A stretch of DNA of 60,695 nt from Planctomycetia bacterium (GTDB taxonomy: Bacteria > Planctomycetota > Planctomycetia > Pirellulales > PNKZ01): assembly GCA_021413845.1 (NCBI GenBank), contig JAIOPP010000124.1, forward strand, positions 1-60,695, written 5' to 3'. A model generated the notes under the pieces. The model worked only from the letters and a program-made list of their open reading frames with translations, searched no databases and was not told where the DNA came from. Within the stretch, counting starts at the first letter, position 1, and each line of letters begins with the position of its first letter. This document shows, piece after piece, positions 25,605-27,897 of this stretch. The translations under genes were made by a program, and so were the position numbers.

Positions 25605-26141
25605 ATGGCAGCTCCTCACGAAAAAGAAGCGGCGCATGCAGGTCCGGCGAAGGTCGGTCTGCTTTCCAAACTGTTGCCGGCATTGATAGTCATCGCCGTC
25701 GTGACGGGCGAAGGGGTCGCCGCGTTCATGTTGATGCCGTCGGTCGAGCAAAATGCGAAGGCCGCGCAGGAAGCTCTCGCCGCGAAGCCTCCGGAGCCCG
25801 AGCACAACGCCCACGACGCCGAGCTTTCGGAAGTCGATTTGGAGCCATTTAAGATCACGTCGTTTCAGCCGGCATCGAGCATTACGTTGCGCGTCGAGTT
25901 CCATCTGTTCGGGATGGTGCCGGCAGACAAAGCCGAAGCGTTTAAGACGTTGTATGAAGCGAAGAAAAATCGGGTGCGCGACAACGTCAACGGCATCATT
26001 CGCAGCGCCGAAATGAACGACCTCACCGACCCGGGGTTGGGCTTGATCAAACGGAAGATATTAGAGACAACTAACAAGGCGCTCGGAAAGCCGTTGCTCG
26101 AAGGAGTGATGTTCTCCGAGTTCACGTTCTTAGAACAGTAG
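25605..26141 (+). CDS. fliL: Flagellar basal body-associated protein FliL
   Basis: FliL surrounds the stator units in the inner membrane. The 178 residues show a short cytoplasmic start, one membrane helix (about residues 20-45, LLPALIVIAVVTGEGVAAFML in part) and a periplasmic SPFH-like domain ending in GKPLLEGVMFSEFTFLEQ, which matches the family end. It follows motB by 93 bases. In most genomes fliM comes next; here it does not. Confidence 0.88.
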   Translation: MAAPHEKEAAHAGPAKVGLLSKLLPALIVIAVVTGEGVAAFMLMPSVEQNAKAAQEALAAKPPEPEHNAHDAELSEVDLEPFKITSFQPASSITLRVEFHLFGMVPADKAEAFKTLYEAKKNRVRDNVNGIIRSAEMNDLTDPGLGLIKRKILETTNKALGKPLLEGVMFSEFTFLEQ

Positions 26142-26348
26142 TGAAGGAAACGTAGTTTCCGAAGCTGTTGTTTGCGAAGAGCGGCGTTATCAGAGTTGTC
26201 CGCGCAGTCGAAGTCGCCATCGCGCCAGGAGGGTGCAGGCACGACTGTTTCGTCCTAGCGAGTTGCTTCGCTCAGATCGTTTCGCGTCGAGAGTTGGCGG
26301 CTGTGAGGCCGTCGACCGTGACGCTTTCGGCTAAAGGAATGGATTCCG
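26142..26348. other. Gap where fliM would be expected
   Basis: Only 207 bases separate fliL from fliN. They have no open frame resembling FliM and no recognisable remnant. A GGCACG-N5-TTTC sequence at about 26236-26250 resembles a sigma-54 promoter but lacks the essential GC at -12. Confidence 0.6.
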
Positions 26349-26987
26349 ATGCCCGGCGACGAATCAAATCAGGTCAGCGCGAGCGAGATCGAAGAACTCT
26401 TGCGCCAAGCGCGCGAAGGAACCGCTCCCGGCGGTTCGCCCGCGGCAGGGGCTTCTTCCACGGCGACCTCGGACGCTTCAGGCGCAGGGGCGACGCATGC
26501 CGACTCGACCGTGTCGTCGAAGCCCGGTGTGTCGAAACCGGCCGCTAAGCCGGTCGTGCCGAGTCCGTCTCATGGCGAAAACTCGATCGCGCAGGCCGAT
26601 ATCGAGTTGCTGCTCAGCCATGCCGAAAAGGCGCTCGCTTCGGCGCAAGGAGCCGGTGACGACGCGTTGCCGGCCGGCGTCAATCCGTTCAAGTTGGAAG
26701 ACTTCGCCGGTGCGCCGGCTTCGACCGAGATCGCGACGATCGAACTCGTGCGCGATGTCGAACTCGATCTGAAGATCGAGCTCGGCCGAACGCATATGTA
26801 CTTGGAAGACGTCTTGAAGCTCCGTCGCGGCTCGGTCGTGCCGCTCGATAAGCTGGCCGGCGATCCGGTCGACATCTACGTCAACGGCCGGCTCATCGCC
26901 CGAGGCGAAGTGTTGGTGCTCAACGACAACTTCTGCGTGCGGGTCGCCGAACTCATCAGCAGCGAGGCGAGCGCCGCCGCCGGTTGA
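26349..26987 (+). CDS. fliN: Switch protein FliN with two FliM-like N-terminal motifs
   Basis: The C-terminal SpoA domain (residues ~128-205, [44 protein letters not shown]) identifies FliN, a C-ring protein. At 212 residues it has an extra ~125 at the N-terminus. That extension has two similar motifs, [12 protein letters not shown] (10-21) and [14 protein letters not shown] (80-93), joined by a Pro/Ser/Ala linker. Both resemble the CheY-binding peptide of FliM (SQxEIDALL) and of FliY. No CheC-type domain is present, so it is not a classical FliY. Since fliM is missing next door, this FliN may take the CheY signal itself (inference). AAGGA lies 10 bases upstream. Confidence 0.9.
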
Positions 26988-27036: not shown

Positions 27037-27897
27037 ATGGCAGACAACGCGAAATCGCCGCTCGTTCACGGCTTGTTGCTCTCGGCAGCGCTGCTGCTCG
27101 GCGCGCATGCGCCGGCCTTGGCGCAACAGTCTTCCGCTCCTTCGTTCGGCGTTCGAAGTGACGCGGAAGCGACGCCGGCCACGTATCTCGCACCCTCTAT
27201 TACACCGCCCGGAGCATTGCAATCGCCGGCCGCCGCGCCGGAGCCTCGGCTCCTTACTTTGCCGACTCCCGCAGCGCCCGTCGCAGTATCGCCGGTTGCT
27301 GTGGCACCGGTTGCCGAACCAGTCGCGGCCGTCGGGCTCACGCCTGCCGATGCGAAAGCGCCGAAGAAGCTCGCGCTGCCGGGTGCGGATAGAGCGGGCG
27401 CAAATAAATCCGGCGCAGATAAAGCCAACGCAGCGAATTCAGGAACCGATTCCAACGCCATGCGCAGCACGACGAGCCGTGGCCTTTCCGGCGTCGTTAC
27501 CGTGTTGGCGAGCCTCGGCGTCGTGCTCGGCTTGTTCATCGGCATGGCGTGGCTCATGCGTCGCGGACTGCCGAAGCAAGGACGCCTATTGCCGCGCGAA
27601 GCGGTCGAATCGCTCGGGCGAATCCCTTTTCCCGGTCGGCAGCAGGGGCAGCTTCTCCGCGTCGGCAACAAGATGGTGCTCGTGAGTTTCTCGAACTCCG
27701 GCGCCGACGTCATCGCCGAGATCACCGATCCGCTCGAAGTCGATCGTCTGTCGGGCCTTTGCGCTCAGCACGATCCGCATAGCTCGGTGAAGACGTTCCG
27801 CGACGTCGTCGACCAGTTCTTCGGCGAGAAGCCGCAGCGTCGTGCGGCGGCGCGCAGCGCCGCGGCGATGAGAACGAAGGAGCGCGACGTTGTTTAA
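27037..27897 (+). CDS. fliO: Flagellar biosynthesis protein FliO
   Basis: FliO helps assemble the FliP ring of the export gate. The 286 residues begin with a signal-like segment (residues 7-27, ending ALAQ), then an Ala/Pro/Val-rich periplasmic linker. A membrane helix follows at about 150-170 ([25 protein letters not shown] in part), then a cytoplasmic FliO domain with [24 protein letters not shown]. It overlaps fliP by 8 bases. Confidence 0.85.

Follow-up and report, generated by a model that had tools for sequence, protein, structure and literature searches.

FliM-type docking motifs on the N-terminal tail of FliN, in up to four copies, across an order of Planctomycetota

Sequence comparison supports the conclusion that FliN-borne copies of the FliM-type EIDALL motif, multiple in many proteins, are real and widespread in an order of Planctomycetota, the Pirellulales. 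We propose, with a probability of roughly one half, that the tail of the C-ring protein FliN serves here as a carrier of FliM-type EIDALL helices, with FliM intact, and that these helices would dock CheY-P and probably FlhG. The gene from which the comparison extends lies in a stretch of 60,695 nucleotides, hereafter the window, which is positions 1 to 60,695 of contig JAIOPP010000124.1 of the Planctomycetia bacterium assembly GCA_021413845.1 (Table 1).

Table 1. Features of the fliN locus in the window, with positions in the window and the supporting matches or scores
Feature	Position	Strand	Evidence and remarks
fliL	25605..26141	+	PF03748, 27.7 bits (cut-off 24.6)
fliL-fliN gap, 207 bp	26142..26348	+	without flagellar gene; fliM slot in E. 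coli
fliN, 212 aa	26349..26987	+	TIGR02480, 104.6 bits (cut-off 84.05)
EIDALL-type docking motif, fliN aa 7-22	26367..26414	+	scores 28.2 (FliN-trained matrix) and 1.8 (FliM-only matrix); modelled helix 11-22, mean block pLDDT 87
SpoA-side helix with FliM-like start, fliN aa 78-93	26580..26627	+	scores 10.7 (FliM-only matrix) and 13.7 (FliN-trained matrix); modelled helix 82-100, mean block pLDDT 89 and 84
SpoA (FliMN_C) domain of FliN, aa 133-203	26745..26957	+	PF01052, E 8.8e-25
fliO-like gene	27037..27897	+	PF04347, 18.8 bits (cut-off 22, not reached); position in cluster

The window fliN sits in a flagellar export and switch gene cluster, with fliL on its 5' side and the fliO-like gene followed by fliP on its 3' side. 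The E. coli order, for comparison, is fliL-fliM-fliN. A preliminary description of this DNA had placed non-coding sequence in the fliM slot, and this is borne out: the 207 bp between fliL and fliN hold no flagellar gene, and fliM is not nearby. Among 80 named loci of relatives, fliL lies upstream of fliN in 72, at a distance of 21-330 bp that depends on the start chosen and within which the gap in the window falls; none of the 80 has a FliM-like frame on the fliN strand within the stretch covered, which in many loci ends at a contig end.

The window protein shares with known FliN (TIGR02480) the SpoA domain, the place between fliL and fliO/fliP and a score above the equivalog cut-off, and differs from it by a tail of about 125 residues with a FliM-type motif and an extra helix, neither of which is present by score in E. 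coli FliN. Identity as FliY was ruled out, the protein reaching 100.7 bits against a cut-off of 218 for NF005995 and 71.1 against 219 for NF006272, with no CheC-type Pfam family. PF01052 is the sole Pfam family in it, which agrees with the earlier statement that it has no CheC domains, and a Pfam search found the FliM middle domain PF02154 absent. Like the window FliN, the FliN homologue FliY links a motif at the N-terminus to a SpoA domain, but FliY combines its EIDAL motif with a CheC-like domain, and the window FliN is further set apart by copies of the motif that are independent of FliM.

Two FliM-like motifs had been described in the FliN tail, and both are present at the places given in Table 1; they are not, however, equivalent, the first being of the EIDALL type and the second the start of a longer helix on the SpoA side. 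We scored them with two matrices. The first, FliM-only matrix was trained on 26 motif strings from 47 FliM tails, all 47 of which have exactly one docking motif per FliM. In 5000 shuffles of the window tail scored with it, the best value was at least 10.7, the score of the second motif, in 0.04%, and the second-best value at least 2.0 in 0.04%; the first motif scores poorly against this matrix, a point against our proposal. The second matrix, trained on the FliN motifs of relatives, gives the E. coli FliM motif 22.7 and E. coli FliN -11.7, and on shuffled tails its 99.9th percentile is 8.1 and the largest value of all shuffles 13.5, against the 28.2 and 13.7 of the two window motifs. Because the FliM-trained caller misses clear motifs, that first one included, we took counts from the FliN-trained caller, which is partly circular and has shuffled tails as its null. 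No direct repeats were found in the window's own fliN tail. A protein of the same genus (L020) has two EIDALL motifs and the SpoA-side helix; the window protein has one and the helix.

To describe the order, FliN loci were drawn from 92 of 118 SpoA-positive genomes; nine were dropped, five as cut by contig ends (G010, G033, G042, G060, G061) and four as weak matches (G047, G089, G120, G136), leaving 83 usable FliN. Comparison of their N-termini found EIDALL-type motifs to be widespread, with at least one in 70/83 and at least two in 55/83 (none in 13, one in 15, two in 42, three in 12 and four in one). The claim of multiple FliM-type motifs on FliN thus extends, by sequence, across the order, up to four accompanied by the SpoA-side helix. 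With the stricter FliM-only matrix, none, one, two, three and four motifs were counted in 19, 24, 31, 8 and 1 of the same proteins. The named loci, 76 of 80 of which are untruncated and whose species overlap with the 83-FliN sample, carry at least one motif in 75/76 and at least two in 57/76 (none in one, one in 18, two in 37, three in 18 and four in two). Names among these relatives are Pirellulales, Blastopirellula, Lacipirellula, Botrimarina and Thermoguttaceae, a set that points to Pirellulales as the order; among cultured carriers, Blastopirellula marina DSM 3645, two Botrimarina species and Aeoliella straminimaris have two copies each and Lacipirellula limnantheis one. Outside the order, 64 of 84 hand-picked FliN of the phylum have no motif, 15 have one and five have two, several of the single matches being weak. 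The highest copy number was seen in G051 (L011/L192), a draft in which no FliM was found; its FliN combines four EIDALL motifs with the SpoA-side helix.

The motifs are conserved amid fast-drifting linkers and are under purifying selection. Across 10 hand-picked groups of 32 proteins, with regions labelled from one member per pair, pN/pS is 0.15 for the motifs, 0.19 for the SpoA-side helix, 0.42 for the linkers and 0.06 for SpoA, ratios that are rough because pS is high, at about 0.6; the motif value is below the linker value in 10/10 groups. The extra copies come from in-frame tandem duplication: tandem DNA repeats span 88 nt at 86% identity with a period of 90 in L207, 62 nt at 82% in L220 and three 48-nt copies at 73-79% in L192, and a weaker DNA repeat is present in the fliN of L208.

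We propose that these proteins are C-ring FliN of the usual kind, in which the disordered tail at the N-terminus has come to bear EIDALL docking helices of the FliM type (a single one in the window species, none to four across the order) ahead of a conserved SpoA-adjacent helix. FliM is retained with its own single motif. The FliN N-terminal motifs have the same motif sequence as the EIDALL peptide of the FliM N-terminus; FliM has one copy of it, whereas in this order up to four further copies are found on FliN, besides FliM's own. Each helix may dock the known ligands of the motif, CheY-P first and probably FlhG too. EIDAL(L) at the N-terminus of FliM or FliY is reported to bind CheY-P (PMC9126983; PMC6946799), and binding is described as proceeding in two steps via the N-termini of FliM or FliN(Y) (PMC9126983). 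Since the C-ring holds about three FliN per FliM, given as a FliM1-FliN3 stoichiometry (PMC7355467), such tails would provide several times as many docking sites and would raise the local ligand concentration for the second contact, the one on FliM or FliN that brings about switching. Tentatively, and at somewhat short of even odds, we picture a multivalent FliN docking fringe in which one to four motifs on each of about three FliN per FliM give several-fold the CheY-P (or FlhG) sites of E. coli. Tandem duplication would adjust the number of sites, some of them would have gone together with chemotaxis, and FliM might even be dispensable in G051, G083 and G145.

The ATPase FlhG accompanies FliM/FliN (or FliM/FliY) to the C-ring and determines how many flagella there are and where they are placed. 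As a ligand of the FliN motifs it appears, from published work, equally as possible as CheY-P: the N-terminal 36 residues of FliY are reported as necessary and sufficient for FlhG binding in Geobacillus/Bacillus (PMC12327844), and in polar flagellates FlhG is described as binding the FliM N-terminus (PMC11236974; PMC12826062). The window's genome encodes CheA-CheW and also flhA-flhF-flhG, its FlhG having the DQAxxLR activator motif and matching the structures of FleN and G. thermodenitrificans FlhG. It is possible, if unlikely in our estimate, that the FliN motifs mainly serve FlhG and that CheY-P is handled by FliM.

By the FliN-trained caller, FliN motifs are present in 66/75 genomes with FlhF versus 4/8 without (absent in 9/75 and 4/8; p 0.0185), with G070 and G141 scored as FlhF-positive on a split match and on a match just below cut-off, and in 57/64 genomes with CheW versus 13/19 without, a weak link (p 0.065) that counts against our proposal. 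The stricter FliM-trained caller gives p 0.010 for CheW and a stronger association, p 0.0015, for FlhF. When labels were permuted within families, zero-motif FliN were in excess both in FlhF-less genomes (4 observed versus 1.99 expected, P 0.030) and in CheW-less genomes (6 versus 3.0, P 0.025). Copy number, however, tracks CheW and not FlhF, which argues against FlhG as the main ligand: within families, CheW-less genomes hold 19 motif copies versus 29.2 expected (P 0.0001) and FlhF-less genomes 7 versus 9.3 (P 0.16), and after collapsing to genera the CheW comparison stands at 1.06 versus 1.36 (P 0.029), with P 0.44 for FlhF. These CheW and FlhF tests are post hoc and on draft genomes. The lower copy number in CheW-less genomes favours CheY. 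Also against a main role for FlhG, motifs are retained in four of the eight FlhF-less genomes, one of them with three, and FlhG itself was inspected in two genomes only. On the other side, CheW-less genomes keep the FliM motif in all 15 readable FliM (of 19) and at least one FliN motif in 13/19, so chemotaxis alone is an insufficient explanation; this speaks for FlhG and against a pure CheY-P reading of our proposal, and a second, CheY-independent role for the FliN motifs is likely, with FlhG as the best candidate. In G018, G124, G132 and G139, which have no FlhF match over cut-off and no FliN motifs, the FliM motifs are atypical as well (SPADVERLL, SRDDVDSLL, SRNDVESLL and GNQELEELL).

The helices might also be amphipathic spacers or contacts for C-ring packing or export (for example with FliH or a neighbouring FliN) that resemble FliM by chance. 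For the SpoA-side helix a separate, structural role is indeed probable. The model of the window FliN is weak overall (mean pLDDT 62.7, pTM 0.32, 24 sequences), with both helices within its confident parts and the intervening tail of low confidence; the SpoA-side helix (aa 82-100) is longer than the first (aa 11-22). It is motif-like by score in 55/83 FliN, and among the 13 FliN that lack an N-terminal motif it was found by score in eight and as a similar helix by eye in the other five, as expected of a structural element. Together with the absence of the motif from most FliN outside the order, this lends the chance-likeness explanation some weight. For the N-terminal motifs we nevertheless regard it as improbable: they agree with FliM position by position, they were duplicated as units, and the matrix trained on them recognises the E. 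coli FliM motif and not E. coli FliN.

FliM itself is encoded elsewhere in the window's genome. A PF02154 search of the whole genome, a 99.6% complete assembly of 7.08 Mb in 167 contigs, matched on contig C109 only, where one complete FliM of 337 aa (E 4.1e-64; 310 bits versus the TIGR01397 cut-off of 219.6) begins with MSGDVLSQAEVESLLSAMEQ, a normal N-terminal motif of the canonical form LSQAEVESLLSAME. The preliminary description had inferred a FliM-free switch, a reading that fails for this genome because a complete fliM with a canonical CheY motif lies on another contig, the very finding that the description had named as refuting it; the docking system looks like an enlarged version of the known switch and not a FliM-free one. 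In the order sample, 118/146 genomes have a SpoA match and 107 a FliM match, 106 of these over cut-off. Neither profile nor protein search found FliM in G051, G083 and G145, which are among the 11 without a FliM match and whose FliN carry four, three and two motifs. That FliN is the sole CheY receiver in place of FliM, as these three could suggest, is very improbable, given the complete, motif-bearing FliM of the window's genome, the draft state of the three (960, 100 and 670 contigs; 92, 92 and 87% complete, respectively), the FliM present in G088, a congener of G083, and the C-terminal FliM fragment in G037, likewise a draft and at first counted as FliM-less.

An EIDAL motif on FliN is already known, sporadically: full or degenerate EIDAL motifs are reported in some FliN and FliY among 12 bacteria, comprising spirochetes, Firmicutes, Epsilon- and Gammaproteobacteria, in a paper whose section 6 makes no mention of arrays of 2-4 copies as an order-wide rule (Henderson et al., 2020; PMC6946799). 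Our search, which covered few subscription papers, found no published account of repeated FliN motifs or of planctomycete FliN; what appears new is the repeated copies across an order. The sensitivity of the switch is usually treated as one CheY-P tether per FliM. If docking on FliN is confirmed, the tether would have moved to a more abundant subunit with a variable copy number, providing a natural series for relating tether number to switching cooperativity, and the order could show whether one peptide serves both signalling (CheY-P) and assembly (FlhG).

A third SpoA protein, besides FliN and FliM, is encoded in the window's genome (L004:1267-1755, G000:C36) and in 15 relatives (L126-L140). 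In the relatives it is about 300 aa long, of which about 170 form a conserved N-terminal domain, for which neither Pfam (10 members searched) nor the PDB gave a significant match. Assignment of this protein as FliM- or FliY-like was rejected on the lack of a Pfam or PDB match and on a comparison with a FliM profile that gave 0.3% probability, the FliM alignment being small and including one fragment. The version in the window's genome is short, and its N-terminus, LLTEADLAALQASA, looks similar to the docking motif. In two further members of the phylum, L309 (G186) and L337 (G226), the frame before SpoA reads like a response-regulator receiver domain and may represent a receiver-FliN fusion.
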